A stretch of DNA of 64,000 nucleotides from Colwellia sp. MB3u-45. Its GTDB lineage: Bacteria > Pseudomonadota > Gammaproteobacteria > Enterobacterales > Alteromonadaceae. Made by a program: the position numbers and the translations under genes. Under the pieces are notes generated by a model, which worked only from the letters and a program-made list of their open reading frames with translations, had not been told where the DNA came from and did not search any database. Shown in pieces: positions 26,159-59,091 of the stretch (positions within the stretch are counted from its first letter, which is position 1; each line of letters begins with the position of its first letter). The stretch covers positions 496,001-560,000 of the forward strand of contig NZ_JACGVC010000044.1 in assembly GCF_014077005.1 (NCBI RefSeq), written 5' to 3'.

Positions 26159-26801
26159 ACGTATTTTGTCGTATGAACTTCGGGCGCTTGTCATGTATTT
26201 ATCCATGGTATTGATGGCAAGCCGTCCAGCATTTTGGTATTAACCTTGAGCGAAATTAGTCAGAAAAATCAACTTAACTCAATTTGATTTACTTAGATAT
26301 TCATAGTGAATATTAGCCACAAGCAAACCAGTATAGCGTTTAAATATCAGTTCAAACCTTTGCGCAACCTTTAGCAAGCTGCATTATGCCCATTGATCAT
26401 CTAGGCTTGTTCTTAAACCTTGAGCTGTAAGTGATGACGAAACGTAAGTTATTGCAAAAAATGTTCAGCTTAACGATTTGAGTTTAGTGATATCAGGTAA
26501 GACCACTACGCTCAATCGTCAATATTTGAGTGATTCTTTCGGTAAAATAATAAATCTCACTATTATATGACATGCCTAATTTATCCACGATTTATTTCCC
26601 AAACGCCGTTTAGTTAGGCTTTTTATTGAGTAATAACCGCACAATTTTTTTGAGCCATCTGTGAACTTATGCCTAGCTTTATTTTTTAATGTTTCTTAGC
26701 TGAGGTTTCTTCGTTAATCAGCTGTTAAATCTTGATTGATTGTGCTTACTGTTAATGTATAGAGTTGACTGCTGTATTTATTTAGCGTAATTTTGACTTA
26801 T
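26159..26801. other. Long noncoding stretch
   Basis: About 640 bases with no recognisable gene. Its last part (AGAGTTGACTGCTGT near 26761) resembles bases upstream of the HTH-receiver gene at 32824 (AGAGTTGATTGTTGT), so the duplicated regulator region may begin here. Confidence 0.4.
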
Positions 26802-26873
26802 ACGGAAAATTCAGAACATACGGAAAAATCGGAATAACCATAAAAGTCGGAACAATCGTAAAATCCAGAGCCA
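26802..26873. promoter_or_regulatory. 18-bp direct repeats, candidate regulator sites
   Basis: Four degenerate 18-base copies in a row. The first is ACGGAAAATTCAGAACAT, the next ACGGAAAAATCGGAATAA, and the last two are more diverged. The 16-base core CGGAAAATTCAGAACA recurs exactly at 32876-32891 upstream of the intact HTH-receiver gene. Shared position and sequence suggest a promoter element or binding site. Confidence 0.5.
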
Positions 26874-26899
26874 CTATTAATCTCCTTAAATGACGGAGT

Positions 26900-27040
26900 T
26901 GAAACTAAAATACTGCCAATTAATCCAGGTTAGTCGTTTACAACATGCACGACACCATCGTGGTCAGGATCAGATTTATTGAAAAATTGGTATACATCAG
27001 TGATCACCGTCGCTTTAATTGAGACGATATTGAAGTTTTT
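26900..27040 (+). pseudogene. Decayed copy of the MerR/BldC-type HTH-receiver gene
   Basis: Reading from 26940 gives TTCTTPSWSGSDLLKNWYTS, and after a frameshift DHRRFN-stop-DDIEVFRLN. The intact protein encoded at 32913 has TTRTIQLWSDSGILKAWKT, VGGHRRFNLEDIEALKAEL. Nucleotides align nearly end to end over about 100 bases. Only the HTH part remains; there is no receiver domain. It lies directly before the first repeat-protein gene. Confidence 0.7.
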
Positions 27041-27131
27041 AGGCTGAATTTAATCATGGGTATTTCCTCTTGAATTCAGGCGATTTTTTACTAAAATATA
27101 AAGATGATGAGGACCATTTACCTTGGGAAAT

Positions 27132-27761
27132 ATGGATAAACAGCATAATCAAAACAAAGTGAATGAAAAAAAAGCCAGTGAATTAGTCCTCGCTAACAAA
27201 GTACTGGCCTTGCAAAATAAAGAGAAAGATAAGCGTATTGATGAATTAGTGTTAGCTAATCAAGAAAAAGATAAGCTTGTAGATGAATTAGTACGAGCTA
27301 ATCAAGAAAAAGATAAGCGCGCCAATGAATTAGTGCGAGCTAATCAAGAAAAAGATAAGCGCGCCGATGAATTAGTACGAGCTAATCAAGAAAAAGATAA
27401 GCGCGCCAATGAATTAGTACGAGCTAATCAAGAAAAAGATAAGCGCGCCAATGAATTAGTGCTAGCTAATCAAGAGAAAGATAAGCGCGCCGATGAATTA
27501 GTGTTAGCTAATCAAGAAAAAGATAAGCGCGCCGATGAATTAGTGTTAGCTAATCAAGAAAAAGATAAGCGCGCCGATGAATTAGTGTTAGCTAATCAAG
27601 AAAAAGATATGCGTGCCGATGAATTAGTGTTAGCTAATCAAGAAAAAGATAAGCGAGCCAATGAATTAGTGTTAGCTAATCAAGAGAAAGATAAGCGCGC
27701 CAATGAATTAATTTTAGTTAATGAAGAACTTGACTTTTTACGGGGACTTTTTAAAAAATAG
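27132..27761 (+). CDS. Stand-alone 14-residue-repeat helical protein
   Basis: About 209 residues with no known domain. After about 30 residues it consists of twelve consecutive copies of a 14-residue unit, EKDKRADELVLANQ-like, then ends ELDFLRGLFKK. The unit is two heptads long and strongly helical and charged, so an extended helix or coiled coil is predicted. There is no signal peptide or membrane segment. The N-terminus resembles that of the next gene's kinase, which suggests duplication and possible co-assembly. An in-frame TTG at 27123 is a possible alternative start. The kinase gene starts 73 bases downstream, so one transcript is likely. Confidence 0.75.
   Translation: MDKQHNQNKVNEKKASELVLANKVLALQNKEKDKRIDELVLANQEKDKLVDELVRANQEKDKRANELVRANQEKDKRADELVRANQEKDKRANELVRANQEKDKRANELVLANQEKDKRADELVLANQEKDKRADELVLANQEKDKRADELVLANQEKDMRADELVLANQEKDKRANELVLANQEKDKRANELILVNEELDFLRGLFKK
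27222..27725 (+). repeat. 42-bp tandem repeat array, 12 copies
   Basis: Twelve in-frame 42-base units, each coding EKDKR(A)(D/N)ELV(L/R)ANQ. Several neighbouring units are almost identical at DNA level, so the array is probably prone to copy-number change in multiples of 14 residues. Confidence 0.93.
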
Positions 27762-27834
27762 CACTGTTGTATTTAGAGTTTAAATTTACCTTCTCATTTA
27801 ATTGATTGTTTACTAAAAATAACTAGGACTATTT

Positions 27835-30800
27835 ATGTTTAAAGATAATGATCAAAAACATAATCGACACGAAGCGAAAGAAAAAAAAGCCAATGAATTA
27901 GTCCTCGCTAACAAAGAACTAGCCTTTCAAAATGAAGAGAAAGATAAACGGGCCGAAGAGTTAATTCTTGCCAACCAAGAGAAAGAAAAACGCGCAGAAG
28001 AGTTAACGCTTGCCAACACAGAACTGGCCTTTCAAAATGAAGAGAAAGACAGATGGGCCGAAGAGTTAATTTTAGCTAACCAAGAAAAAGACAAGCGGGC
28101 CGAAGAATTAATTCTTGCCAATCAAGAGAAAGATAAGCGCGCTGAAGAGTTAATTTTAGCTAACCAAGAAAAAGACAAGCGGGCCGAAGAATTAATTTTT
28201 GCCAACCAAGAGAAAGAAAAGCGCGCAGAGGAATTAACGCTGGCTAACACAGAGCTGGCCTTTCAAAATGAAGAGAAAGACAGGTGGGCTGAAGAATTAA
28301 TTTTAGCTAACCAAGAGAAAGACAAGCGTGCTGAAGAGTTAATTTTTGCTAACCAAGAGAAAGATAAACGAGCTGAAGAGCTGATTTTTGCCAATCAAGA
28401 GAAAGACAAGCGGGCTGAAGAGCTGCTTCTAGCCAATCAAGAGAAAGACAAGCGGGCTGAAGAGCTGCTTCTAGCCAATCAAGAGAAAGATAAGCGGGCC
28501 GATGAATTAACGCTTGCCAACCAAGAGAAAGAAAAACGAGCGAATGAATTAGTGCTTGCCAACACAGAACTGGCCTTTCAAAATCAAGAAAAAGAAAAAC
28601 GTTCAGATGAATTAATCCTCGCCAACGCAGAGCTAGCTTTTCAAAATAAAGAGAAAGACAAGCGGGCCGAGGAGCTGATTCTTGCTAAAGAAGAAAAAGA
28701 AAAACGTGCTGATGAATTAGTCCTCGCCAACAAAGAGCTAGCCTTTCAAAATGAAGAGAAAGACAAGCGGGCTGAAGAGCTGATTCTCGCTAAAGAAGAA
28801 AAAGAACAACGTGCTGATGAATTAGTCCTCGCCAACAAAGAGCTAGCCTTTCAAAATGAAGAGAAAGACAAGCGGGCCGAAGAGCTTATTCTTGCCAAAG
28901 AAGAAAAAGAACAACGCGCCGATGAATTAATTCTCGCCAACGCAGAGCTAGCCTTTCAAAATGAAGAGAAAGACAAGCGGGCTGAAGAGCTGATTCTCGC
29001 TAAAGAAGAAAAAGAACAACGTGCTGATGAATTAGTCCTCGCCAACAAAGAATTAGCCTTTCAAAATGAAGAGAAAGACAAGCGGGCCGAAGAGCTTATT
29101 CTTGCCAAAGAAGAAAAAGAACAACGCGCCGATGAATTAATTATCGCCAACGCAGAATTAGCCTTTCAAAATGAAGAGAAAGACAAGCGGGCCGAAGAAC
29201 TCATTCTTGCCAAAGAAGAAAAAGAACAACGCGCCGATGAATTAATTCTCGCCAACGCAGAGCTAGCCTTTCAAAACGAAGAGAAAGACAAGCGGGCTGA
29301 AGAGCTGATTCTTGCTAAAGAAGAAAAAGAACAACGCGCGGATGAATTAATTCTCGCCAACGCAGAGCTGGCCTTTCAAAATGAAGAGAAAGACAAGCGG
29401 GCTGAAGAGCTGATTCTTGCTAAAGAAGAAAAAGAACAACGCGCCGATGAATTAATTCTCGCCAACGCAGAGCTAGCCTTTCAAAATGAAGAGAAAGACA
29501 AGCGAGCCGAAGAGCTCATTCTTGCCAACACAGAATTAGCCTTTCAAAATGAAGAGAAAGACAAACGGGCTGCAGAGTTAATTGTTGCCAACCAAGAGAA
29601 AGAAAAACGCGCCAATGAATTAGTCCTCGCTAATCAAGAACTAGCCTTTCAAAACGAAGAAGAAGATAAGCGTGCAGATGAGTTAGTTATTGCCAATGAA
29701 GAGAAAGATAAACGGGCCGAGGAGTTAATTCTTGCTAACGAAGAAAAAGAAAAGCGAGCTAATGAATTAGTCCTTGTTCACGAAGAGAAAGATAAGTGGG
29801 AACACGAGTTAATTCTGGCTAACAAAGAACTCGCTTTTCAAATAAAGCTAGACGGTTATCGTTCTGAAAGGGAACGTGTAGCTCAGGAATTAACCATATT
29901 TATGGATACTGCCAATGCCCCTATTTTTGGTGTTGATGCTCAAGGTAATGTCAACCAATGGAATCAAAAGTCAGCGGCTATTACTGGCTACCAAGCCGAT
30001 GAAGTACTAGGTAAAAACCTGGTAAAAGAATTGATCACAAAAGATTATCGTGAGTCAGTAAACCAAGTATTACAAAAAGCCTTAAAAGGCGTGGAAACCT
30101 CTAATTTCGAGTTGCCACTTTATACAAAAGAGAACAATCCAGTCTTGGTGCTACTCAATGCCACTACCCGACGTAATGCGAATGGCGAAGCTGTAGGTGT
30201 CGTTGGGGTAGGGCAAGATATTACCGAGCTTGATAGTTATCGTGCTGAAATGGAAAAAAAAGTAAAAGAGCGTACGCGTGAATTAGATACCATATTAACG
30301 TTAAGTCCAGATGGCTTTGTTTTAGAAAATGCCAACAATAATATTGTTTATATTAACCCCGCCTTATTAAACATGACCGGGTTTACAGAAGATAAGTTTA
30401 TTGGTAAAAGTGCTAAAATTTTTAGTGACGCAATGGCAAGTTTATATAATTCAGAACTAATGGAATATACCAATATTATTGGCAACGAAGATTGTGAACA
30501 TACCATTTATCTATCACGTCCGACCGTACGCATTATTAACTGTAAGCAAAGAACAATGCATGGCTTGACGGGTGAAAAAGAAGGCCAAGTCCTTTATTTC
30601 AGGGACGTAACCCATGAAACAGAAGTTGATAAGATGAAAAGTGATTTTTTATCAACAGCGGCTCATGAACTACGCACACCACTGGCCAGTATCTATGGGT
30701 TTTCTGAATTATTAATGAATCGTGATTATGATAAAAAAATGTCACATGAAATTTTTGAAACTATTCACCGCCAGTCATTAAATCTAAAAAAGTTATTAGA

Positions 30801-31317
30801 TGAACTACTTGATTTATCACGTATAGAGGCAAGAGCGGGAAAAGATTTTTATATGGATAATCATTCGCTTAAAGAACTTGTAGAGCAGTCATGTCTGGAA
30901 GCAGAAGGTGCCTTTAAGGGCCGTAAAGTGGAGGTCAAGTCAACAGGACGTTGGCCGGTAATTTCTTGTGATATTGATAAAATGCGTCAGGTATTTAATA
31001 ACTTGTTAAGTAACAGCTTTAAATATTCTCCTGAAAATGAAAAAGTACGATTAAAAACCAGCGAAAGAGAAAAAAATGGCATTAGGCAGTTTGGTGTTAG
31101 CATTATCGATAACGGTATAGGCATGACACCTAAACAACTTTCTCGTATTGGAGAGCGGTTTTATCGAGCAGACGACTCGGGTGCAACACCAGGTACTGGT
31201 TTAGGTGTGTCATTGGTTAAAGAAATTGTCTCGATTCATACCGGAGAGGTTGAATTTGCTAGTGATAACGAAAAAGGAATGGTGGTAACTGTGTGGTTAC
31301 CCATGGTTAAAAATTAA
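27835..31317 (+). CDS. Giant repeat-containing PAS-PAS histidine kinase
   Basis: A 1160-residue cytoplasmic-looking sensor kinase. Residues about 15-680 are repeats of the EKDKRAEELILANQ family, including eight 35-residue units. A PAS domain follows (about 684-800, with MDTANAPIFGVDAQGNVNQWN), then a second PAS (about 818-925), a HisKA domain with phosphoacceptor H944 in AAHELRTPLAS, and a HATPase domain (about 1045-1158) with N-box NNLLSNSFKYSP and G-boxes DNGIGM and GTGLGVSLV. No membrane segment is visible. The catalytic part closely resembles that of the kinase at 35513. AGGA lies seven bases before the ATG. The receiver gene follows after 18 bases, which makes it the likely phosphorylation partner. 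Confidence 0.9.
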   Translation: MFKDNDQKHNRHEAKEKKANELVLANKELAFQNEEKDKRAEELILANQEKEKRAEELTLANTELAFQNEEKDRWAEELILANQEKDKRAEELILANQEKDKRAEELILANQEKDKRAEELIFANQEKEKRAEELTLANTELAFQNEEKDRWAEELILANQEKDKRAEELIFANQEKDKRAEELIFANQEKDKRAEELLLANQEKDKRAEELLLANQEKDKRADELTLANQEKEKRANELVLANTELAFQNQEKEKRSDELILANAELAFQNKEKDKRAEELILAKEEKEKRADELVLANKELAFQNEEKDKRAEELILAKEEKEQRADELVLANKELAFQNEEKDKRAEELILAKEEKEQRADELILANAELAFQNEEKDKRAEELILAKEEKEQRADELVLANKELAFQNEEKDKRAEELILAKEEKEQRADELIIANAELAFQNEEKDKRAEELILAKEEKEQRADELILANAELAFQNEEKDKRAEELILAKEEKEQRADELILANAELAFQNEEKDKRAEELILAKEEKEQRADELILANAELAFQNEEKDKRAEELILANTELAFQNEEKDKRAAELIVANQEKEKRANELVLANQELAFQNEEEDKRADELVIANEEKDKRAEELILANEEKEKRANELVLVHEEKDKWEHELILANKELAFQIKLDGYRSERERVAQELTIFMDTANAPIFGVDAQGNVNQWNQKSAAITGYQADEVLGKNLVKELITKDYRESVNQVLQKALKGVETSNFELPLYTKENNPVLVLLNATTRRNANGEAVGVVGVGQDITELDSYRAEMEKKVKERTRELDTILTLSPDGFVLENANNNIVYINPALLNMTGFTEDKFIGKSAKIFSDAMASLYNSELMEYTNIIGNEDCEHTIYLSRPTVRIINCKQRTMHGLTGEKEGQVLYFRDVTHETEVDKMKSDFLSTAAHELRTPLASIYGFSELLMNRDYDKKMSHEIFETIHRQSLNLKKLLDELLDLSRIEARAGKDFYMDNHSLKELVEQSCLEAEGAFKGRKVEVKSTGRWPVISCDIDKMRQVFNNLLSNSFKYSPENEKVRLKTSEREKNGIRQFGVSIIDNGIGMTPKQLSRIGERFYRADDSGATPGTGLGVSLVKEIVSIHTGEVEFASDNEKGMVVTVWLPMVKN
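28630..29469 (+). repeat. 105-bp tandem repeat array, 8 copies
   Basis: Eight 105-base units in frame, each 35 residues (five heptads): ELAFQNE, EKDKRAE, ELILAKE, EKEQRAD, ELILANA or ELVLANK. Units differ by few bases. The flanks (27.9-28.6 and 29.5-29.8 kb) contain less regular 14- and 21-residue versions of the same family. Confidence 0.93.
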
Positions 31318-31335
31318 TAGCTTGAGGAATGAACG

Positions 31336-31707
31336 ATGAGTCAAAAAAGAATTTTAATTGTTGACGATCAAGGTGAATTAAGAAAATTAGTCCGAATGAC
31401 ACTTGATTTTGGTGATTATGAATTACATGAAGCAGAAGATGGCCAACGTGCATTGGCATTAGCCAAAGTGATCCAACCCGACTTAGTTATTCTAGACGTA
31501 ATGATGCCTGGTGAAGTTGATGGTTATCAGGTCTGTGAACAACTAAAACAAGACAGTAGTGTAAAAATTCCATATGTGATGTTGTTAACAGCGCGAGGGC
31601 AAAAGTCTGACCTAGAAGAAGGAGAACGTGTTGGGGCAGACAGCTACCTTGTTAAACCCTTTAGTCCATTGGAATTAATACAAAAAGTTAATAGTGCATT
31701 AACTTAA
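31336..31707 (+). CDS. Single-domain response regulator (CheY-like receiver)
   Basis: A 123-residue receiver with no output domain. Acidic residues VDDQ near 9-12, phosphoacceptor D54 in LVILDVMMPG, the conserved threonine in MLLTARGQ and lysine in YLVKPFSP are all visible. It lies 18 bases after the repeat kinase and 37 before the HD-GYP gene, with GAGGA before the ATG. It probably relays phosphate from the repeat kinase, acting through protein contact. Confidence 0.93.
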   Translation: MSQKRILIVDDQGELRKLVRMTLDFGDYELHEAEDGQRALALAKVIQPDLVILDVMMPGEVDGYQVCEQLKQDSSVKIPYVMLLTARGQKSDLEEGERVGADSYLVKPFSPLELIQKVNSALT

Positions 31708-31744
31708 CTATAAATATATCTACTAGAGAATAGAGAATAATCAA

Positions 31745-32638
31745 ATGTCAGTTCATCATTTTATTGGTAATGAAATGGATTCGCTTGTTAAAAAACTTGC
31801 TGCAACGCCAACAGACATAAATCTTGTCTGGGACGTCGTTAAAGTTATGGAGACAGAAAAAGAAGACTTACAAGCTCAGCTTTTTTGTTATGCACAAGAC
31901 ATTCAAAAACTACTTGCTGAGCGCGATATAGCGGCATTGAATGAAAATGAAAAAAATGCTGCCTATAAACAATTAGAGCGATTTAATCATGATTTTATGA
32001 TTTTGATGGCGCAAAAAGAAAAATCATATCAAGCGCTTGAATCATCTCATCTTGATACTATAAGACGTTTAGCGACAGCGGCAGAATTTAAAGATGACGA
32101 TACCGGCGCGCACATCCTTAGAATGAGCCGTTTTTCTTCCATAATTGCGCGTGCTTATGGTCAAGACGAAAAATACTGTAATCTACTTGAGCAAGCTAGC
32201 CCTATGCACGATATAGGAAAAATAGGTATACCTGATGATGTTTTGAAAAAACCGGGTAAATTAACTGAAGCAGAATGGGTCTTAATGCGTAAGCACCCCG
32301 AGTATGGCGCTAATATTTTAAGTGGTTCAGACGTTCCTGTTTTACAAATGGCGGAAGAAGTCGCATTAGCACATCATGAGAAATTTGACGGTAGCGGATA
32401 CCCCTCAAATTTACAGGGTGAGCAAATTCCTTTAAGTGCCCGCATTGTTGCTTTGGCAGACTTTTTTGATGCCCTAACCATGGATAGATGCTATCGCCCG
32501 GCATTCTCTGATGAAAAAGCACTTACTATGGTGAAAGAAAACAGCGGCACGCATTTTGATCCCAAGGTTGTTCAAGCTTTTTTCTCTGTCAGTAATGACA
32601 TTATTAATGAACGCGATAGAATTAATAAGGAAAATTAA
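31745..32638 (+). CDS. HD-GYP domain c-di-GMP phosphodiesterase
   Basis: A 297-residue protein with an N-terminal helical segment (about 1-110, coiled-coil-like) and an HD-GYP domain. Visible motifs are HILRMSRFSSIIARAYG (metal histidine near 121), H155-D156 in MHDIGKIGIPDDVLKKPGKLT, KHPEYGANIL, HHEKFDGSGYP with G218-Y219-P220, and ADFFDALTMDRCYRP. All key residues are present, so hydrolysis of cyclic di-GMP is predicted. It carries no receiver domain, so the adjacent CheY-like protein may regulate it in trans. Confidence 0.92.
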   Translation: MSVHHFIGNEMDSLVKKLAATPTDINLVWDVVKVMETEKEDLQAQLFCYAQDIQKLLAERDIAALNENEKNAAYKQLERFNHDFMILMAQKEKSYQALESSHLDTIRRLATAAEFKDDDTGAHILRMSRFSSIIARAYGQDEKYCNLLEQASPMHDIGKIGIPDDVLKKPGKLTEAEWVLMRKHPEYGANILSGSDVPVLQMAEEVALAHHEKFDGSGYPSNLQGEQIPLSARIVALADFFDALTMDRCYRPAFSDEKALTMVKENSGTHFDPKVVQAFFSVSNDIINERDRINKEN

Positions 32639-32874
32639 GCTTTGTTTGCGGCTGTAAGCGTTTTTATACTTGGCTGTTTTTTTGCCTATAAAGTAGGTCT
32701 CCTCACCAACGAAACTGTTATAAATTAACAGTTTTATCTCAGCGATAGATAACACAAAAATACCTGATAGCAGCTAAGTCTTAGCAGCACAGTCTTCGGC
32801 TGTTTTAACCATAGATTACTCTACAGAGTTGATTGTTGTCAGTGCTTAGTATACATTTGGTGTATGCGGAAAAT

Positions 32875-32892
32875 GCGGAAAATTCAGAACAA
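32875..32892. promoter_or_regulatory. Conserved motif upstream of the HTH-receiver gene
   Basis: GCGGAAAATTCAGAACAA, preceded by a partial copy GCGGAAAAT. It shares a 16-base identical core with the repeats at 26802 and lies 20 bases before the ATG. It may be an operator, possibly autoregulatory. Confidence 0.5.
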
Positions 32893-32912
32893 ACAGAAAG
32901 GAGCAAGATTGA

Positions 32913-33512
32913 ATGCATCAAGTCACTGATTTAAAAGTGAAACACTGTACCTCAAAACAAGCAGCTAGTTTGTTAGAGGTAACAACACGAACGATTCAGC
33001 TTTGGTCAGACTCAGGGATATTAAAGGCTTGGAAGACAGTAGGTGGACACAGGCGCTTTAATCTAGAGGATATTGAAGCGCTTAAGGCTGAACTTAAGCA
33101 AGAGACTAACCCTGCTGTCGAGCACAAGTTAGTACGTGTTTTAGTGATAGAAGATGAGCCTGATTTAATTATGTTGTATAAAATGACTATTGAAGGTTGG
33201 AATTTACCTATTATTTTACAAACGGCTAGCGATGGTTTTCAGGGCTTAATACACATAGGTGCATGGAAGCCTGATATTGTTATTACCGATATTCAAATGC
33301 CAAATGTAAATGGTATTCATATGTTAAAAAGCCTGGCCAAAATGGAAGAATTTAACGACATGGTGGTTATGGCGGTATCAGGATTATCAAAAGCAGAGAT
33401 TACTCAAAAAGGTGGCTTACCGGCAGGGATACCTATTTTCACTAAACCCATTCCATTTGATGAAATTGAAAAAATCATTAATCAGCAATGTAAAACACTG
33501 TTAAGTAGTTAA
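32913..33512 (+). CDS. HTH (MerR/BldC-type) and receiver fusion regulator
   Basis: A 199-residue protein with an N-terminal excisionase/MerR-like helix-turn-helix (about 12-65: TSKQAASLLEVTTRTIQLWSD, VGGHRRFNLEDIEAL) and a C-terminal receiver (about 72-192) with phosphoacceptor D126 in IVITDIQMPN and lysine in FTKPIPF. The DNA-binding domain precedes the receiver, the reverse of the common order. It is likely a transcription regulator phosphorylated by one of the local kinases. The soluble kinase gene starts 5 bases after its stop, which makes that kinase the prime partner. A decayed copy exists at 26900. Confidence 0.88.
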   Translation: MHQVTDLKVKHCTSKQAASLLEVTTRTIQLWSDSGILKAWKTVGGHRRFNLEDIEALKAELKQETNPAVEHKLVRVLVIEDEPDLIMLYKMTIEGWNLPIILQTASDGFQGLIHIGAWKPDIVITDIQMPNVNGIHMLKSLAKMEEFNDMVVMAVSGLSKAEITQKGGLPAGIPIFTKPIPFDEIEKIINQQCKTLLSS

Positions 33513-33517
33513 TCACT

Positions 33518-34624
33518 ATGAATAAATTATTTGTTAAACTTTTATCCCAACTTAGCGATGGCATTGTGATGTTTGATATAACAGGTAAGGTATTTTTTAG
33601 TAATTTAAAAAAATTAGGTTTTGAAGGCGTTGTGGTTGGCAATAAAATAGCCGATAACCGTGTTATGGAAGCCGTAGCTGAAATGCACACGAGTGAACTA
33701 GAGCAAGTAAAAGACATAAAGTTAAAAGACATAAAGTTAAATGGCATTGAGCAGGTTGAAAACAACAACCATACGCTTATCTTTCATGAAGAAAATATGT
33801 TTTGTCTATATATTAGAAAGGAGCTTGAAAGAGTAAAGTATCAGGGACTACAAGATAATATGTTTAAACTGATTAATCATGAATTACGTACCCCTATGCA
33901 AGCCTTTACAGAGGGAGCATTTTTTCTTTCTGAGCGACTTAACACAGACGAAATCAAGGAAAAAAATCTTGATGCTCTGATTGAACTAACCATTAACAGT
34001 GCTAAAGAAGTCACAAGCAAAATGGAAAAACTGCTTGAGTTGTCCGAAACTTATGGTGATGACCCCATGCGTAACAAAGAACGTATAAGCCTAGTTGAAG
34101 TGACTCGTAGCGCCATTAACTCACTTAGCGAAATGAGCGCCAGTAAAGGTATTGTTATTAGACTCAAGCAAAAAGGCGAGATTATTGGCAATTTATACGG
34201 TAGTTTTGGCTGGCTAAAACGTGCGATTACAGAATGTGTGCAAAACAGTATTGAACATAGCCATAAGGGCAGTGAAATTCATTTGCAGCTTAAGCAAAGT
34301 AGTCATTTTGCCCATATAACTATTCGTGATTTTGGACGAGGAATTTCACCAAAAGTAAAAAATACATTATTTGAACCCTTCATTGGTGGCGGTGATAAAG
34401 AGGGGTCTAGCAATCAAGGCCTAGGTATTGGGTTAAGTTTAGCTAAAACCATTATTAAAAATCATGGCGGCAATATAAAAAATGTCAATCTAAAAAATGC
34501 CGTACAATTTCATATTGAATTGCCGACCGGTGGTGAAAAATCGTCGACTAATGATTTGGATATACGCCAATCACAACTATATGCCCGCGATATGGCTTTA
34601 CTGATGAACAGAGACAAGTCATAA
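33518..34624 (+). CDS. Soluble histidine kinase
   Basis: A 368-residue kinase with no membrane segment. An N-terminal PAS-like region (about 8-95, DGIVMFDITGKVFFSN) precedes the HisKA domain with H121 in NHELRTPMQAF and a HATPase domain with N-box TECVQNSIEHS, DFGRGIS and GLGIGLSLAKTI. The N-terminal part has a short in-frame duplication, KDIKL repeated near residue 68. It lies 5 bases from the HTH-receiver gene and is probably co-translated with it. A hairpin terminator follows. Confidence 0.9.
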   Translation: MNKLFVKLLSQLSDGIVMFDITGKVFFSNLKKLGFEGVVVGNKIADNRVMEAVAEMHTSELEQVKDIKLKDIKLNGIEQVENNNHTLIFHEENMFCLYIRKELERVKYQGLQDNMFKLINHELRTPMQAFTEGAFFLSERLNTDEIKEKNLDALIELTINSAKEVTSKMEKLLELSETYGDDPMRNKERISLVEVTRSAINSLSEMSASKGIVIRLKQKGEIIGNLYGSFGWLKRAITECVQNSIEHSHKGSEIHLQLKQSSHFAHITIRDFGRGISPKVKNTLFEPFIGGGDKEGSSNQGLGIGLSLAKTIIKNHGGNIKNVNLKNAVQFHIELPTGGEKSSTNDLDIRQSQLYARDMALLMNRDKS

Positions 34625-34660
34625 ATTTCAAGCGTTATGCCACTATCCTAAAAGATGCTC

Positions 34661-34685
34661 ATCCTTTAAAAATAAAGGGTTTTTG
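34661..34685 (+). terminator. Hairpin overlapping the ribosome site of the PhnD-like gene
   Basis: ATCCTTTA (34661-34668), loop AAAA, TAAAGGGT (34673-34680), then four more T. It has the form of a terminator for the kinase gene upstream. Its right arm also contains AAGGG, the likely Shine-Dalgarno sequence for the ATG at 34688, so it may instead control translation. Confidence 0.6.
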
Positions 34686-34687
34686 AT

Positions 34688-35497
34688 ATGAAACAGATCA
34701 TAATATTATTAACAATCGTTTTTGCTACCCCTATGGCCCAAGCGGAAAAAGTATTAAGCTTAGGCGTAGTACCGCAACAATCTGCGTCGAGTTTGGCTAA
34801 AGTATGGGTGCCATTGGCAATGTTTTTGTCCAAAAAAACAGGTGAAAATATTCGTTTTGCCACCGCACCTACTATTCCAGAATTTGAAAAGCGCGTAGCG
34901 GCGGGCAGGTATGACATTGTTTACTTAAATCCATATCACTATACGCTATTCAGCAAATCTATAGGTTTGCGAGCGATTGCAAGACAAAAAGATAAGCGTA
35001 TTCAAGGCATTATTGTTGTAGCGAGTAACAGTGAAATATCAAATCTAGCTATGTTAGAGAAGGCAGAAATTGCCTTTCCTGCTCCTGCTGCATTCGCCGC
35101 AACTGTGCTACCACAAGCCAACTTAACGCTGCGTAATATAGCTTTCACGCCAAGGTATGTGTCTTCTCATGACTCTGTCTATGCCGGTGTTGCTAAAGGT
35201 TTATTTGTGGCTGGGGGCGGTATTGTTCGCACCTTATCTACTTTGCCTAAAGCGCTGTCAAATAAGTTAAAGATAATATGGCGCTCAGAAGGCTATACGC
35301 CACATGCCTTCGCGGTAAGCTCAACAATAAGTCCTGAAGCTGCAGTCAAGATTCAAAACGCTTTAGTGTCGTTAAATGAGCAAGAAGAAGGCAAAAAAAT
35401 TCTTAGCAAGTTAGGTTTTAATACCGGTATTGTGAAAAGTACTGATAGTGATTGGGATGATGTTAGGGCACTTAACATCAAGATAATAAAACAATAA
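34688..35497 (+). CDS. PhnD-like periplasmic binding protein
   Basis: A 269-residue protein with a signal peptide (about 1-19, ending AQAEK) and the PhnD/SsuA-like solute-binding fold: LSLGVVPQQSASSLAKVWVPLAMFLSKKTG, then YDIVYLNPYHYTLF near residue 78 and FAATVLPQANL. PhnD-type proteins bind phosphonate, phosphite or phosphate, but this branch often works with sensor kinases and not ABC transporters. No permease or ATPase gene is near. A membrane kinase gene follows after 15 bases, so a sensing role is inferred. Confidence 0.85.
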   Translation: MKQIIILLTIVFATPMAQAEKVLSLGVVPQQSASSLAKVWVPLAMFLSKKTGENIRFATAPTIPEFEKRVAAGRYDIVYLNPYHYTLFSKSIGLRAIARQKDKRIQGIIVVASNSEISNLAMLEKAEIAFPAPAAFAATVLPQANLTLRNIAFTPRYVSSHDSVYAGVAKGLFVAGGGIVRTLSTLPKALSNKLKIIWRSEGYTPHAFAVSSTISPEAAVKIQNALVSLNEQEEGKKILSKLGFNTGIVKSTDSDWDDVRALNIKIIKQ

Positions 35498-35512
35498 AAG
35501 AAACTCATACCC

Positions 35513-37612
35513 ATGTTTAAATTATCATTCAAAATAAAAACCATTATTGGTATCGCACTTATCGAAACTTTTTTTCTATTGATATTGGTGTTAGAAAGTC
35601 GATCAATTTTATATGAAACTATTGAATTTGACATCAAAGAACGTGCACACAACATTTCTACGTTATTAGCGACAGCATCAGTAGATGCCGTTGTTTCTGA
35701 AGATATTGCCACACTTGAGTCAATTGTAGAGTCAGCAATGATAACCTCGAATATTCTTTATATTAAGATACGAGGTTTAGATGGAGTATTAGCAGAGCGA
35801 GGTGAGCAAGCTTTTTTAGATCGTAAATTTAAGGCCGATAACTCTATCGCTGAAAGTGAAATAGACCAAAGTTTTGATACCTTTTCAGAGATATTTGTTG
35901 AAGGTTATCGATTTGGCCGTGTGGAAGTTGGACTTTCTTTAGCAGAGCAGAAGGCCATCATTAAAGCCGCAACACATAGCTTAACCACCATAGCGCTAAT
36001 AGAACTAATGTTTGTAGGGCTATTTTCATTACTGCTTGGTATAACACTCACCAAACGCCTTATATTATTGCAGGAGGCGGCGGTCAAGATGTCTCAAGGT
36101 GAAACGGGTTTACAAATTCCTCTTGCAGGTAATGATGAGCTAACAGATGCATCGCGGGCTTTTAATTTGATGTCGACTAAAATTTCAGCAGTCACTCAGA
36201 CGTTGAAATCTGATAACGCTCGCATGGATGCCATCATGAATACCGCGACAGATGCTATTTTTATGATCAGTTTAGACGGTGTAGTTCATTCTATGAATAG
36301 AGCGACTTATGTTCTTTTTGGTGTTCAAGAACAAGATATTATTGGCCAGAGTATGTTCGATTTTATTCCTGAACTGCATTTATGTGACATAGAATCATCG
36401 ACAGTTAGGCATGTACAGCGTATTAATGGCGTTACCTTTAAGGGGAAAAAAATTCCCCTAGAAATTCATTCAAGTGGCATGGAGTTCAATAATCAACACT
36501 ATATTGTGGGTGTAATACGGGATCTAACGACTATAAATCAGCTCAAAGTTGAATTAGAAGCGGTATTTAACTTAAGTCCCAATGGTTTTTTAATTCTTGC
36601 TAAAGATCTGTCTATTTCATATGTGAATCCAGCGTTCTACGCCATGTTTTCGTTAGTAACAGACTGTTTAAATGATCATGACTGGGAATGTTTTAAAGGG
36701 GTAATAGCTAAGTCAATGGACCATGAACAGCATAAAGATATGAAACTATTAGACGAGTTATACACTGAAAATATTTTGTATTTAAAATTACCGGTAGAAA
36801 AAATATTACGTGTCTCTCGACAAAAAATAGATAAAACTGATGTCGACTCTTCAGATATATTATTTTTTGTTGATATTACGCATGAAAGCATTGTAGATAA
36901 AATGAAAAGTGAGTTTTTAACGTCAGCGGCACATGAACTTCGCACTCCTTTAGCCAGTGTCATGGGTTTTAGTGAACTGTTAACCCTTTGCGATTATGGC
37001 CCAGAAAAAACCAAAGAAATGGCCGGAAGTATCAATAAACAATCAAAGCGTCTCAAACAGATAGTGGATGACTTAATCGATGTTGCCAGTATAGAAAATA
37101 AAACGCTGGGTATGCTTGATATGGTTCAAGACACCTTAAAAATAACGCTAACTGAACTCTGTGACGAATTTTCTGGCAGTGATAACTTTCATACTATCGA
37201 CTTACAGCAACCAAAATACTGGCCTCTTATTGAATTTGACTCATCTAAAATACGTCAGATTATCTCTAACATATTGAATAATTCATACCGATATTCTCCA
37301 AACAGCTCAGTTGTGAAAGTTTACACCACAATGAAAGTAACAGAAAAAACATCAGAATTTGGGGTGATAATTGAAGATAACGGTATAGGAATGACAGCAG
37401 AGCAATTATCCCATATAGGTGAGCGGTTCTACAGAGCTGATACCTCTGGAAATATACCGGGCACAGGTTTGGGCATAAGCTTAGTTAAAGACCTTATAAA
37501 TATGCACAATGGACGATTTGAAATAACAAGTATCATTGGACAAGGCACAATTGTAACGCTTTGGCTGCCTAATATAATCATGAATCACGTTAAGCTAGAT
37601 AAGGTCTTATGA
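35513..37612 (+). CDS. Membrane-bound PAS histidine kinase
   Basis: A 699-residue sensor kinase. Membrane segments lie at about 10-31 and 157-180 and enclose a periplasmic domain of about 125 residues. HAMP follows (about 180-235), then two PAS-like domains (about 240-345 and 350-450), HisKA with H474 in AAHELRTPLAS, and a HATPase domain with NILNNSYRYSP, DNGIGM and GTGLGISLV. Its catalytic half is clearly paralogous to that of the repeat kinase at 27835. It is flanked by the PhnD-like protein gene (15-base gap) and the porin gene (ATGA overlap), so the three are probably one operon. Confidence 0.92.
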   Translation: MFKLSFKIKTIIGIALIETFFLLILVLESRSILYETIEFDIKERAHNISTLLATASVDAVVSEDIATLESIVESAMITSNILYIKIRGLDGVLAERGEQAFLDRKFKADNSIAESEIDQSFDTFSEIFVEGYRFGRVEVGLSLAEQKAIIKAATHSLTTIALIELMFVGLFSLLLGITLTKRLILLQEAAVKMSQGETGLQIPLAGNDELTDASRAFNLMSTKISAVTQTLKSDNARMDAIMNTATDAIFMISLDGVVHSMNRATYVLFGVQEQDIIGQSMFDFIPELHLCDIESSTVRHVQRINGVTFKGKKIPLEIHSSGMEFNNQHYIVGVIRDLTTINQLKVELEAVFNLSPNGFLILAKDLSISYVNPAFYAMFSLVTDCLNDHDWECFKGVIAKSMDHEQHKDMKLLDELYTENILYLKLPVEKILRVSRQKIDKTDVDSSDILFFVDITHESIVDKMKSEFLTSAAHELRTPLASVMGFSELLTLCDYGPEKTKEMAGSINKQSKRLKQIVDDLIDVASIENKTLGMLDMVQDTLKITLTELCDEFSGSDNFHTIDLQQPKYWPLIEFDSSKIRQIISNILNNSYRYSPNSSVVKVYTTMKVTEKTSEFGVIIEDNGIGMTAEQLSHIGERFYRADTSGNIPGTGLGISLVKDLINMHNGRFEITSIIGQGTIVTLWLPNIIMNHVKLDKVL

Positions 37613-38949
37613 TGAAACTAAATATATTAATACTTATCAGTATGTTGCTCCTGTTAACTGGGACAGCGGCTCAGGCCAGTTCAGAAATTGAAACACTGAT
37701 AGATATGCTGCATCAAAATGGCACTATCAGTGATGCTCAGTACGCTCGCTTACAAGCTGAGTTAGGAGAGCGTAAGGTAAAAAGTAACCAACAAGTTGTA
37801 AGCTTAGACAAACAAGGAGTACAAGCGAAAAAATCGTCTGATGTTGAGGTGTCAGTAAAGGGGGCTGTAAGCGTTAAAACACCTGATGGTGCTTTTACAA
37901 CAAAAATTGGTGCACGTGTTATGGCCGATGCCGCCGCTTATAAAAATGACAATAACACCATGGGTGATGGTACTAAAATCAGGCGGGCTCGTATGTCATT
38001 GCAAGGAAAGATGTATCATGACTGGGCTTATAAGTTTGAATATGACTTTGCGACGGGTGAAATTAAAGGTATTGCTGATGCATTTGTTGAATATCAAGGC
38101 CTAGATGCAATGTCAGTCAGAGTCGGTAATATGAAAGACCCCTTCAGTCTACAATTTCAAATGAATGCAAACTATAACTTATTTATGGAGCGCTCACTAA
38201 CCAACGGTCTTAACACTGGGCGTCATATAGGAGCTATGGTATTTACCAATAGAAAAAATTGGACAGCATCCGCTGGATTATTTGGAGAAGCCGTACAAAC
38301 AGTAGGCAAAGAAAAGGACGAAGGCTGGGGATTGGGTAGCCGAGTTACCTATGCACCGATTAATAGTAAAGGTTCCTTGCTACATTTGGCAGTATCAGCA
38401 AATTATCGTGATGCAGGCGAGGTGGCTATATTGCGTTTTAAGCAACAGCCTGAAAGTAACGTGTCGGGTATTAATATCGTCGATACTGGCAATATAGCCA
38501 AGGTAGATTTTCATTCAAAATATGGCTTGGAAGTTGCGATGGTATCAGGGCCACTCTCTGTTCAATCAGAATATGTTGCTGCATCGGTTAGCCGCTATAG
38601 TGCTCCCAGTTTGGCTTTTAATAGTTGGTATATTCAAACCGGCTATCTATTAACCGGTGAATCACGTCAATATAGACAAGGTAAGTTTGGCAAGATAACA
38701 CCTAACTCTAGTGTGGGTAATGGTGGTATAGGTGCTTGGGAACTTGGCTTGCGTTACAGTACTATTAATTTAAATGACCAAAATATTATGGGTGGTGAAG
38801 CCAACAGTTTAACTTTAGGTGTTAATTGGTTTGCCACTTCGACCATCAGGTTTTCAGCTAACTATATTAATGTTTTACAGGTAAATGGTGGTCCTCTTGA
38901 ATCTGTTCATCCTGATATAATTCAGCTGAGAAGCCAATGGGCATTTTAA
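37609..38949 (+). CDS. Phosphate-selective porin O/P family protein
   Basis: A 446-residue outer-membrane porin with a signal peptide (about 1-24), a short N-terminal helical segment (ETLIDMLHQNGTISDAQYARLQAEL, about 26-50) as in OprP/OprO-type porins, and a beta-barrel ending in the aromatic QWAF. Family segments RRARMSLQGKMYHDWAYKFEYDF and VRVGNMKDPFSLQ are visible. It is translationally coupled to the kinase by a 4-base overlap. Uptake of phosphate or a related oxyanion is plausible and fits the PhnD-like neighbour. Confidence 0.88.
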   Translation: MMKLNILILISMLLLLTGTAAQASSEIETLIDMLHQNGTISDAQYARLQAELGERKVKSNQQVVSLDKQGVQAKKSSDVEVSVKGAVSVKTPDGAFTTKIGARVMADAAAYKNDNNTMGDGTKIRRARMSLQGKMYHDWAYKFEYDFATGEIKGIADAFVEYQGLDAMSVRVGNMKDPFSLQFQMNANYNLFMERSLTNGLNTGRHIGAMVFTNRKNWTASAGLFGEAVQTVGKEKDEGWGLGSRVTYAPINSKGSLLHLAVSANYRDAGEVAILRFKQQPESNVSGINIVDTGNIAKVDFHSKYGLEVAMVSGPLSVQSEYVAASVSRYSAPSLAFNSWYIQTGYLLTGESRQYRQGKFGKITPNSSVGNGGIGAWELGLRYSTINLNDQNIMGGEANSLTLGVNWFATSTIRFSANYINVLQVNGGPLESVHPDIIQLRSQWAF

Positions 38950-39010
38950 TCGAATTTCCCTGCTTAATATAAGTTTGGTTATTGCTTGCGTTTAGCCAAC
39001 AACTAAGTTG

Positions 39011-39067: not shown

Positions 39068-39090
39068 CTGCTGTGTGTTTATGACACGAA

Positions 39091-56418: not shown

Positions 56419-59091
56419 ATGTTTGGTTGGATAAAAAATAAAGATAAGCGAGCGGATGAGTTAATTCTTGCCAATAAAGAAAAAGATAAGCGCGCGGATG
56501 CGTTAGTCCTTGCCAACAAAGAGAAAGATAAGCGCGCGGATGAGTTAGTCCTTGCCAACCAAGAGAAAGATAAGCGCGCCGATGAGTTAATTTCTGCCAA
56601 CCAAGAGAAAGATAAACGAGCAAATGAGTTAATATTTGCCAATCAAGAGAAAGATAATCGCGCCGATGAGTTAGTCCTTGCCAATAAAGAGAAAGATAAA
56701 CGAGCAAATGAGTTAATTCTTGCCAATCAAGAGAAAGATAAGCGCGCCGATGAGTTAGTTCTTGCCAATAAAGAGAAAGATAAGCGCGCCGATGAGTTAG
56801 TTCTTGCCAATCAAGAGAAAGATAAGCGTGCCGATGAGTTAGTTCTTGCCAATAAAGAACTTGCCTTCCAAAACCAAGAGAAAGATAAGCGCGCCGATGA
56901 GTTAGCTATTGCTAATCAAGAAAAAGATAAGCGCGCCAATGAGTTAATCCTTGCCAATAAAGAACTTGCCTTCCAAAACCAAGAGAAAGATAGTCGCGCG
57001 GATGAGTTAGCTATTGCTAATCAAGAGAAAGATAAACGCGCCGATGAGTTAGCTATTGCTAATCAAGAGAAAGATAAGCGCGCCGATGAGTTAATCCTTG
57101 CCAATAAAGAACTTGCCTTCCAAAACCAAGAGAAAGATAAGCGCGCCAATGAGTTAGCTATTGCTAATCAAGAGAAAGATAAGCGAGCCGATGAGTTAGC
57201 TATTGCTAATCAAGAGAAAGATAAGCGAGCCAATGAGTTAGTGCTTGCCAACCAAGAACTTGCTTTTCAAAATAAGGAAAAAGACAAGCGAGCAAATGAG
57301 TTAATGCTTGCCAATAAAGAGAAAGATAAGCGCGCGGATGAGTTAACTCTTGCTAATAAAGAGAAAGACAAGCTAGCCGATGAGTTAGCTATTACCGCCA
57401 GTGTATTCAGCCATGCCCGCGAAGGTATCTCCATCACAGATTCAACAGGCACTATCATTGATGTCAATGCTACTTTCACGACGATAACGGGTTATAGCCG
57501 TGAAGAAGCCATTGGACAGAACTTACGTATTTTTAAATCCGGACGACAATCACCAGAGTTCTACGCCGATATATGGCAAACCGTATTGAATGATGGCTTT
57601 TGGTCTGGTGATATATGGAGCTGTCGTAAAAATGGTGAAGTTTATCCCGAAATGCTCAACATTAGTTCGGTCAAAGATATTGCTGGCCACATAAGTAACT
57701 ATGTTACCTTATTTACAGATATCACCTCGATGAAAGAATACCAGAGTCAATTAGAGCATATTGCCCATTACGATGTACTTACGCACCTACCCAACCGAAA
57801 GCTACTTGCCGACCGATTATCTCAAGCTATGTTGCAGTGCGACCGTCATCAGCTGTCACTCGCTGTCGCATTTCTAGATTTAGACGGTTTTAAAGCCGTT
57901 AACGATACTCATGGACATGATGTAGGTGATCAACTATTGACCGCACTCTCACTTCGTATGAAAGAGGTGTTGCGAGAATGTGATACCTTAGCGCGTATTG
58001 GCGGTGATGAATTTGTCGCCGTATTAGCGGATCTAGCCAGAGATGAAGATTGTAAACCGGTATTAGATCGTTTGTTATTAGTAACGTCTGAGCCGGTTTT
58101 AATTGGTAAGTTAGTCTTAAATATATCAGCTAGTATTGGCGTCAGCTTTTACCCTAAAGATGGTGTCGATGCCGACCAGCTCATGCGCTGTGCTGATCAA
58201 GCTATGTACGTGGCTAAAGAATTAGGTAAAAATTGTTATCACGTACTCGATATGGCTCAAGATGAGGCGGTGAAAGTGCAAAAAGAAAGCCTAGAGGCGA
58301 TTCAAAGTGCATTAAAGAATCATCAATTTTTGCTCTACTATCAGCCTAAGGTAAATATGAAAACAGGCGCGGTAATAGGGGTTGAGGCGCTTATGCGCTG
58401 GCAACATCCGACCAGAGGGCTATTAAAACCCGATGAATTTTTGCCTACCATGGAAAATAACGCCCTGAGTATTGAGTTTGGTGAATGGGTTATTGATACC
58501 GCACTAACACAAATTAGCCAGTGGCAAAAAACAGGGCTTAATCTCCCTATCAGCACAAGCGTAAACATTGTAGCAGCACAATTACGCCAACCTGACTTTA
58601 TCCAGAGGTTAAAGGCACTGTTAGCAGCCCACCCCGATGTTGAACCAGGCTATTTAGAGTTAGAGATACTGGAAAAAAATGCTTTAGATGATGTTCATCA
58701 TGTATCAACAATCATGCAAGCCTGTATGGCCTTGGGCGTAAAATTTGCCTTAGATGATTTTGGCACCGGCTATTCGTCCCTCACTTACCTTAAACGATTA
58801 CCAGCCAAGGTCATTAATATAGACCCGAGCTTTGTGCGAAACATGTTGCACGATGCCGATGACTTCGCCATTGTTGAAGCCGTGATAGCCTTAGCTAAAC
58901 CATTCAAACGCAGCGTGATTGCAAAAGGTGTCGAAACGATTGAACAAGGCATGGCGCTATTACAATTGGGCTGTGAATTAGCACAAGGTAATAGTATTGC
59001 CAAACCTATGCTAACCCGTGATGTTCCAGAATGGGTAGCTAATTGGAAGCCCGATGCAAGTTGGAACCCTGATGCGAATTGGAAGATATAA
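56419..59091 (+). CDS. Repeat-containing PAS-GGDEF-EAL protein
   Basis: An 890-residue cytoplasmic-looking signalling protein. Residues 7-325 are 14-residue EKDKRADELVLANQ units, interrupted by 7-residue ELAFQNQ inserts, the same repeat family as at 27-30 kb. A PAS domain follows (about 330-440). The GGDEF domain is intact at 528-532 (ARIGGDEF), so c-di-GMP synthesis is predicted. The EAL domain has E656-A-L, the asparagine in SVNIVAAQL and DDFGTGYSS, but the conserved lysine in the K-I-D motif is N800, the first Glu of E-G-V-E is K836, and QGY is QGN. These changes suggest a weak or dead phosphodiesterase, perhaps a binding site. The gene has a strong Shine-Dalgarno sequence and no operon partner. 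Confidence 0.92.
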   Translation: MFGWIKNKDKRADELILANKEKDKRADALVLANKEKDKRADELVLANQEKDKRADELISANQEKDKRANELIFANQEKDNRADELVLANKEKDKRANELILANQEKDKRADELVLANKEKDKRADELVLANQEKDKRADELVLANKELAFQNQEKDKRADELAIANQEKDKRANELILANKELAFQNQEKDSRADELAIANQEKDKRADELAIANQEKDKRADELILANKELAFQNQEKDKRANELAIANQEKDKRADELAIANQEKDKRANELVLANQELAFQNKEKDKRANELMLANKEKDKRADELTLANKEKDKLADELAITASVFSHAREGISITDSTGTIIDVNATFTTITGYSREEAIGQNLRIFKSGRQSPEFYADIWQTVLNDGFWSGDIWSCRKNGEVYPEMLNISSVKDIAGHISNYVTLFTDITSMKEYQSQLEHIAHYDVLTHLPNRKLLADRLSQAMLQCDRHQLSLAVAFLDLDGFKAVNDTHGHDVGDQLLTALSLRMKEVLRECDTLARIGGDEFVAVLADLARDEDCKPVLDRLLLVTSEPVLIGKLVLNISASIGVSFYPKDGVDADQLMRCADQAMYVAKELGKNCYHVLDMAQDEAVKVQKESLEAIQSALKNHQFLLYYQPKVNMKTGAVIGVEALMRWQHPTRGLLKPDEFLPTMENNALSIEFGEWVIDTALTQISQWQKTGLNLPISTSVNIVAAQLRQPDFIQRLKALLAAHPDVEPGYLELEILEKNALDDVHHVSTIMQACMALGVKFALDDFGTGYSSLTYLKRLPAKVINIDPSFVRNMLHDADDFAIVEAVIALAKPFKRSVIAKGVETIEQGMALLQLGCELAQGNSIAKPMLTRDVPEWVANWKPDASWNPDANWKI
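56437..57393 (+). repeat. Repeat array of 14- and 21-residue helical units
   Basis: About 960 bases coding the repeats of the GGDEF-EAL protein. Most units are 42 bases. Four carry a 21-base ELAFQN(Q/K) insertion, which gives a higher-order period. DNA of the units is nearly identical to that of the array at 27222, for example GAGAAAGATAAGCGCGCC. Confidence 0.9.

Follow-up and report, generated by a model that had tools for sequence, protein, structure and literature searches.

A gene cluster of Colwellia sp. MB3u-45 would combine two-component and c-di-GMP signalling around a histidine kinase that appears to begin with an expandable helix kept in heptad register. A neighbouring repeat-only protein (RO) would act as a dimerisation-only partner or cap. 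We give this reading as a whole about an even chance of being right. The cluster lies in a window, i.e., the complete stretch of 64,000 nucleotides that was analysed. A first-pass annotation had regarded it as a candidate new signalling system; to us it appears instead to be a known type of bacterial signalling in unusual form. A literature search by peptide strings and keyword combinations found no description of the repeat.

Gene content of the cluster

The genes listed in the first-pass annotation are all present, on one strand and in the order it gave (Table 1). The interval proposed for the locus, 26802-33512, does enclose genes of the cluster, but its start falls within 973 bp in which no open reading frame of at least 80 amino acids is listed, and its end precedes the soluble kinase. 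A third repeat protein, absent from that first list, is encoded in the same window about 25 kb past the RO-kinase cluster, with repeat anchors at offsets 13-307.

Table 1. Features of the repeat-protein cluster and of the third repeat gene (window positions).
Feature	Position	Strand	Description and basis
Repeat-only protein RO	27132..27761	+	209 aa (212 aa from TTG 27123); ORF, 42-bp tandem array
Repeat kinase	27835..31317	+	1160 aa; N-terminal array, PAS, ERT helix, PAS, HisKA, HATPase_c
KKVKERTRELD helix (ERT motif) between both PAS domains of the repeat kinase	30256..30288	+	Translation and offset
Lone receiver (REC)	31336..31707	+	123 aa; PF00072
Candidate HD-GYP c-di-GMP phosphodiesterase	31745..32638	+	PF13487; HDIGK and HHEKFDGSGYP motifs
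HTH_17/MerR-type DNA-binding domain fused to receiver	32913..33512	+	199 aa; domain matches
Soluble histidine kinase	33518..34624	+	368 aa; HATPase_c match; FKLINHELRTP by reading
Third repeat protein: array, PAS, GGDEF, EAL	56419..59091	+	890 aa; tandem repeats, domain matches

The repeat kinase is a two-component histidine kinase: it matches PF00512 and PF02518 above cut-off and carries the phospho-acceptor motif AAHELRTP. Its array is followed by a PAS domain (690-796), a second PAS (about 818-855), HisKA (934-999) and HATPase_c (1046-1157). The soluble kinase gave no HisKA match in the Pfam scan, and its H-box-like motif was found by reading only. The HD-GYP product has both the HD and the GYP motifs and is predicted to be a phosphodiesterase. 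RO had no match in Pfam or NCBIfam (E 0.001), nor among PDB sequences. Judging from domains and gene order, array and PAS would feed the ERT helix and, beyond it, the second PAS and HisKA. HisKA would then signal to the lone receiver, and probably to the HD-GYP and HTH-receiver genes.

Repeat arrays and their heptad phase

The array of the kinase covers about 640 residues and has 38 anchors, starting at 0-based offsets 20 to 657. The first-pass annotation saw about 660 residues of the same 14-residue repeats as in RO; the array is indeed long, but its 14-residue units (21 scored spacings) are interspersed with 21-residue ones (15). RO had likewise been described as made only of 14-residue repeats. 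It does contain 11 scored 14-residue spacings; in addition, its N-cap has a first unit of the 21 type, and it ends in a C-terminal tail of its own. At the DNA level, TRF reported 12.2 copies of 42 bp (92% matches) and 9 copies of 105 bp (92%) in the window.

All 224 scored spacings between neighbouring anchors in 20 proteins were multiples of 7 (anchors at most 16 residues from a core motif, spacings of at most 35, proteins with at least three anchors). Three of these come from L052, a protein interrupted by a contig end after 91 residues that may be RO or kinase and was counted as neither. When spacings of as much as 49 were admitted and the motif filter was a different one, the count was 144 of 144 in 10 proteins. 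Two genome matches, in G024 and G1179, were unrelated low-complexity repeats. The 7n spacing is partly inherited, since the units are homologous and expand whole. Conservation at unit positions 1, 2, 5 and 6 proves nothing because the search anchor favours them, and we dropped the invariant L2 and A5 as evidence because the anchor selects them. Outside the anchor, L9 was kept in 20 of 20 21-mers and A13 in 44 of 45 14-mers of the window.

Three related repeat kinases (window; Glaciecola pallidula, 942 aa; G1240, 586 aa) have arrays of 677, 453 and 96 residues. The PAS-to-His distance is 246 in all three, and up to the PAS domain their anchors lie in one phase modulo 7 (38/38, 26/26 and 4/4). 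The array is no fixed ruler, because its length varies 7-fold while the phase holds; the earlier idea of repeat number as a set quantity is not supported, given the same variation. We read the array as an N-terminal helix that can expand while staying in heptad register. Seven of eight GGDEF-EAL relatives share a phase, with 19/19 anchors in the window, 9/9 in Colwellia sp. MB02u-6, 15/15 and 34/35 in two G008 proteins, 15/17 in G005, 7/7 in G028 and 3/3 in G. pallidula (C6); a 3-residue difference between regex forms of the landmarks was corrected by hand. In the remaining protein, from G228, six of seven anchors lie in another phase, which counts against our reading. The outputs of 11 scanned array proteins with an output domain were GGDEF-EAL, HisKA and/or HATPase_c, HATPase_c-REC or HD-GYP.

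The kinase array is under strong protein-level selection, since third-position change far exceeds second-position change. Counting only units bounded by two anchors, per-site differences among its 14-mers come to 0.463 in third and 0.007 in second codon positions (0.425 and 0.010 without the four anchor-favoured positions). Array length would change by one or more entire units at a time, with slippage or unequal crossing-over of the 42-, 63- and 105-bp DNA repeats as the probable mechanism, and so neither the reading frame nor the heptad phase relative to the first PAS would shift.

The helical nature of the repeat, already suspected in the first-pass annotation, agrees with the AlphaFold2 model of RO, computed without alignment: a single predicted helix from 2 to 208 (pLDDT 93.5, pTM 0.39; one chain, which cannot show oligomers). 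A 611-aa kinase piece modelled from a two-row alignment was unreliable (pLDDT 42) and was set aside. If helical throughout, the kinase stalk would measure about 100 nm (0.15 nm per residue over about 640). A COILS-type score was no higher than in composition shuffles (mean P 0.18 for RO, 0.52 for the kinase, 0.14 for the GGDEF-EAL protein), and the scan of the three window arrays gave no single dominant register.

Charged single alpha-helices are characterised by a high density of i,i+4 salt bridges and a low share of hydrophobic residues. Since the classical coiled-coil score does not beat shuffles, we keep some weight on a related alternative that we nevertheless find somewhat unlikely, namely that the arrays are monomeric charged helices stabilised by salt bridges that expanded almost neutrally, RO then being a duplicate of the 5' end of the kinase gene, left over and of little function. 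The charged fraction of the window arrays (0.46-0.47) and the 7-fold variation in array length among related kinases would suit it, as would opposite-charge i,i+3 pairs that exceed all 500 shuffles in each of the three arrays (36 vs a maximum of 30, 96 vs 90, 58 vs 48). At i,i+4 the pairs number 95 in the kinase (shuffle maximum 95), 29 in RO (maximum 31) and 37 in the GGDEF-EAL protein (shuffle mean 34.9). Against it, LIVMF residues make up 0.21-0.24 of the arrays, hydrophobic positions are kept outside the anchor, and every scored spacing is 7n despite heavily diverged third codon positions. In the expandable-helix reading that we prefer, the array would keep a pair of kinase chains alongside each other in fixed register, and likely serves association with other array proteins and not length measurement. 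The kinases with 96-, 453- and 677-residue arrays in one heptad phase form a natural experiment on transmission by register versus length.

Origin and role of the repeat-only protein

RO was found in just one further genome, that of Colwellia sp. MB02u-6, where the orthologue has 265 aa from the shared ATG (27132 in the window). The upstream TTG could serve only in the window genome because of a 1-nt indel between TTG and ATG. The N-terminus is homologous in RO and kinase, the two share the repeats that the first-pass annotation saw in both, and an alignment shows the N-cap common to RO and kinases. The RO and kinase leaders match at 26 of 31 aligned bases (83.9%, gaps left out), with a mean of 61.3% and a maximum of 82.1% in 300 shuffles. 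This alone is borderline, so the N-cap alignment carries the claim of homology. RO is a truncated relative of the kinase N-terminus.

In the RO of both species the position of the kinase start codon reads otherwise, which could be decay. RO units show little third-position excess (0.101 at position 3 and 0.075 at position 2; 0.142 and 0.105 without anchor positions) and have been homogenised recently. Both points count against our reading, and the altered start region and weak constraint within the array fit the leftover duplicate described above. The dN/dS of RO, in contrast, is 0.08 over the 89 alignable end codons between the window and MB02u-6, against 0.06 in the flanking aminotransferase: RO is under purifying selection at the protein level, which speaks against a duplicate of little function. 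We also rejected a sequencing or gene-calling artefact, because the relative's copy is intact, in frame and has this dN/dS.

Among the genomes examined, RO and repeat kinase were seen together only in the window genome, and 13 of the 16 genus members gave no match in the genome search. In MB02u-6 the repeat kinase is gone from the RO site, where the 3' end of the soluble kinase remains. A kinase core is found elsewhere in that genome, with a receiver replacing the array and the first PAS; its DNA match to the window kinase begins at window position 30253, and domains have been exchanged near the ERT helix. That RO persists where no repeat kinase was found counts against our reading. Conversely, two Glaciecola-group genomes (G303 and G1240) encode the repeat kinase without RO. 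In G. pallidula a lone receiver (L096 6727-7101, 83% identical) lies directly 3' of the repeat kinase. A tblastn search with a 105-aa array piece found no match in plasmid and phage collections, a weak result because the low-complexity filter of BLAST may hide repeats. The HD-GYP gene matched 577 plasmid records, all below 60% identity, which is uninformative.

By the test that the first-pass annotation set for itself, a conserved RO-kinase pairing is not supported among the genomes examined. It had proposed that RO and kinase align lengthwise, so that the number of repeats determines spacing or signal strength. The genes are adjacent, separated by 73 bp in which a search found no terminator-like site, and share N-cap and array. 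Yet the pairing is seen in no second genome, RO has 209 or 265 aa in two close genomes and kinase arrays vary 7-fold, and we consider this proposal very improbable.

The partner of RO could instead be the GGDEF-EAL repeat protein, with RO modulating c-di-GMP output; this too we find unlikely. Both RO genomes carry the GGDEF-EAL repeat protein in synteny, which may be one event because they are close relatives. The RO 14-mers are on average nearer in DNA to the GGDEF-EAL units than to those of the kinase. Of seven proteins compared, just those of the two RO genomes have INID for IKID and IAKGVET for IAEGVE in the EAL domain; the other five keep IKID and IAEGVE. Repeat GGDEF-EAL proteins also occur without RO, e.g., in G008, G005 and G028, which counts against this alternative.

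Returning to the reading with which we opened, RO would be an array without output kept by protein-level selection. It probably pairs with other arrays, most likely as a cap or dimerisation-only partner of the kinase array, of the GGDEF-EAL array or of the two together. At its most far-reaching, RO would be a dimerisation-only regulator born from a sensor-kinase N-terminus that inserts in register into both stalks and couples phosphorelay with c-di-GMP, while variable 42-bp units lengthen the arrays and leave unchanged the heptad phase that sets signal polarity; we judge this full version decidedly unlikely. As a stand-alone, selected copy of the array, RO is a natural reagent for testing helix association between proteins.

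Comparison with known systems

MicroProteins are regulators that consist only of a dimerisation domain. RO resembles them in that, of a larger signalling protein, it keeps just the part presumed to serve association; it differs in that its role is one we infer. The catalytic half of the repeat kinase matches models of PAS-HisKA-HATPase_c kinases of the PhoR, PnpS and VicK type, and the solved kinases 4jas, 2c2a and 4i5s. Unlike these types, it has a repeat array in front and, by reading, no transmembrane sensor. Its PnpS equivalog score is 241 against a curated cut-off of 400 bits, and it stays below the cut-offs of its best equivalogs.

The S-helix is described as a helical segment of about 40 residues with an ERT signature in its central heptad, found in kinases and diguanylate cyclases (PMC1592074). 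The window kinase shares an ERT motif between its PAS domains (compared at the level of the motif). The array differs: it reaches about 640 residues, is N-terminal in the three window proteins, and a search found the motif in none of the kinase array, RO and the GGDEF-EAL array.

Length differences in multiples of seven and register coupling are reported for coiled-coil linkers of diguanylate cyclases and for engineered kinases in PMC9587094 and PMC11164954. In the coiled-coil linkers of phytochrome-regulated diguanylate cyclases (PadC), length differences are often multiples of seven (54% of PadCs), and selection is said to act on linker length (PMC9587094). Engineered linkers of several registers functioned in PMC11164954, so register need not be strict. 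PadC linkers and the array are alike in length differences that are often multiples of seven. The former connect a sensor with an effector, and their lengths differ by a few heptads, whereas the array differs by up to 83 heptads, is N-terminal in the window proteins and is encoded by tandem DNA repeats.

Gene content of the repeat locus

The gene set of the first-pass annotation was borne out by open reading frames and Pfam matches: a repeat-only protein (RO), a repeat kinase, a lone receiver, an HD-GYP protein, an HTH_17/MerR-receiver protein (MerR-REC) and a soluble kinase, all on the forward strand. The host genome comprises 4.17 Mb in 59 contigs. Pfam identified a PhnD-like binding protein, a HAMP-PAS kinase and a porin O/P on the 3' side of this signalling cluster, in a row that looks like a ligand-sensing cassette. 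As a query against its whole own genome, RO matched three arrays (RO, kinase and a GGDEF-EAL protein) and two further proteins that hold roughly one or two units (C41 and C44:575650, contig labels).

The EAL domain of the GGDEF-EAL repeat protein has the motifs INID and IAKGVET, as also found in Colwellia sp. MB02u-6; the five other compared repeat GGDEF-EAL proteins have IKID and IAEGVE. With these replacements, the phosphodiesterase may be inactive.

Features of the repeat locus and of related loci (window positions unless a fetched locus, L, is named)
Feature	Position	Remark
ORF-free stretch 5' of RO	26159-27131	973 bp without listed ORF of 80 aa
Tandem repeat	26824-26863	18-bp unit; inside the ORF-free stretch
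RO	27132-27761 (+)	209 aa
Repeat kinase	27835-31317 (+)	1160 aa
Lone receiver	31336-31707 (+)	
HD-GYP	31745-32638 (+)	
MerR-REC	32913-33512 (+)	
Soluble kinase	33518-34624 (+)	
PhnD-like protein, HAMP-PAS kinase, porin O/P	34688-38949	tight row; HAMP-PAS kinase akin to repeat kinase
Third repeat protein	56419-59091	repeat-PAS-GGDEF-EAL
Rearranged cluster, Colwellia sp. MB02u-6	27793-39085; L037 2496-3275; L044 11986-16343	
Receiver 3' of G1240 short-array kinase	L124 12142-12339	seen only as shortened frame
Array of uncultured Colwellia	L052 5980-6253	contig stops within array; RO/kinase N-cap present

Spacing, phase and distribution of the repeats

The 14-residue unit has the consensus ELVLANQEKDKRAD in RO and ELILANQEKEKRAE in the kinase, which also carries a 21-residue unit (ELILANAELAFQNEEKDKRAE). 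Across 20 repeat proteins, taken from the window and from fetched loci, 224/224 scored spacings were multiples of 7 (7 residues, n=3; 14, n=137; 21, n=81; 28, n=1; 35, n=2), although the units are homologous and the spacings therefore not independent trials. The 14-mers of the kinase differed by 0.463 per site at third and 0.007 at second codon positions (0.425 and 0.010 without the positions favoured by the anchor, the search motif marking each unit), and there was therefore time enough for other indels to arise.

Relatives of the kinase were found in Glaciecola pallidula (942 aa; 81% identity across the C-terminal 479 residues) and in the genome G1240, whose genus label is the same (586 aa; 77% across 478). 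The first anchor lies 677 residues from the PAS landmark in the window, 453 in G. pallidula and 96 in G1240. All three kinases have a PAS-to-His distance of 246. Their anchors share one phase, i.e., distance to the PAS landmark modulo 7 (38/38, 26/26 and 4/4, respectively). After correction of a 3-residue landmark difference, seven of eight compared GGDEF-EAL repeat proteins had one phase for all or nearly all anchors, the exception being the G228 protein, with a different phase. Length is free in the compared array proteins; phase mostly is not.

With RO as query (E 0.001), 6 of 40 relatives matched, own genome counted and including an unrelated repeat in G024. Three of the 16 other genus members matched, and RO itself was found only in Colwellia sp. 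MB02u-6. At 1e-8, matches occurred in 10/246 genomes of the family sample (own counted; that of G1179 is unrelated). Searched with 105 aa of the kinase array, the order gave matches in 5/394 genomes and the phylum sample in 4/398, own counted in both, and the class sample in 1/369, this one being the own genome; the samples overlap. A pattern scan over named species genomes gave 8 loci, and the output in the 11 scanned output-bearing array proteins is GGDEF-EAL, HisKA and/or HATPase_c, HATPase_c-REC, or HD-GYP. Among the loci examined, a short repeat-made frame closed at both ends occurred only in the window and in Colwellia sp. MB02u-6; the frames of L052 and G228:C166, which run off their contigs, could also be of this class. 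The L052 array could be another RO or a kinase.

Conservation of the neighbourhood and proposed origin of RO

The proposal that RO and the repeat kinase form a conserved pair was not upheld: no second pairing was seen among the genomes examined, and Colwellia sp. MB02u-6, G. pallidula and G1240 are unpaired. Contig C14 of Colwellia sp. MB02u-6 is collinear with window 16178-61532 and lacks 27793-34367 (kinase through the greater part of the soluble kinase) and 35004-39085; 16 bases from the RO match lies a 3'-end remnant of the soluble kinase. Its contig C15 carries a copy of 30253-34635 with a receiver in place of the array and first PAS, and the exchange boundary in this 507-aa kinase lies at the ERT helix (KKVKERTRELD in the window kinase). 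Relative to the window, dS is 0.86 for the C15 kinase core, 0.127 for the receiver, 0.159 for HD-GYP, 0.050 for MerR-REC and 0.202 for the flank. Since the kinase core is more diverged than all the others, the signalling cluster has probably recombined. MerR-REC itself shows more non-synonymous (14) than synonymous (6) changes against Colwellia sp. MB02u-6 (dN/dS 0.61), differing from the neighbours measured.

The order in G. pallidula is MerR-REC, repeat kinase, receiver; the 18-kb region holds neither an RO nor an HD-GYP relative. In G1240 the order is MerR-REC, repeat kinase and a shortened receiver frame, and no RO was seen at this locus. MerR-REC occurs in 13/246 family genomes (own counted) and 2/17 in the genus. 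Of the 10 further family matches, the surroundings of eight were fetched (G1220 and G1252 left out); none of these eight has a repeat kinase nearby, and some have other kinases or receivers.

RO of Colwellia sp. MB02u-6 starts at the same ATG and has 265 aa, with four 14-mers more. Of the changes in the 89 alignable end codons, 14 are synonymous and 6 non-synonymous (dN/dS 0.08; 0.06 for the flanking aminotransferase), and constraint inside the array is weak. By alignment, RO and the kinases have the N-cap in common, and perhaps part of the leader. The position of the kinase ATG reads ACC in the window RO, and GTG followed by a 1-nt indel in the other. The common N-cap and this altered position suggest that RO is a kinase 5' end severed after the array, with a shifted start. 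The DNA of RO 14-mers is on average farther from kinase 14-mers (mean 10.6-13.6 differences per unit) than from those of the GGDEF-EAL gene (6.5-10.8).

Proposed mechanism and known signalling helices

RO is predicted to form a long helix, the repeat kinase has an H-box and an ATPase domain, and a receiver lies 3' of it in the window and in Glaciecola. The kinase array would dimerise in register and RO would join such arrays; the lone receiver would take phosphate from the kinase, with HD-GYP and the HTH-receiver as outputs. Against in-register dimerisation, the coiled-coil score is no higher than that of shuffles, and the array charge patterns would fit a lone helix, too. The first-pass annotation saw a candidate new signalling system in which RO and kinase could align through shared repeats, their number setting spacing or signal strength; its observation on genes and repeats holds, whereas the signalling system does not hold as put.

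Signalling helices are of a known kind. Among PadC diguanylate cyclases, differences in linker length are often multiples of seven (PMC9587094). Engineered kinases repressed by light preferred one heptad register, though inverted ones were spread over several (PMC11164954), and the S-helix with an ERT signature was proposed as a switch (PMC1592074). The repeat-array locus belongs here, and is set apart by its unusual natural series of array lengths and by an unusual stand-alone array, RO.
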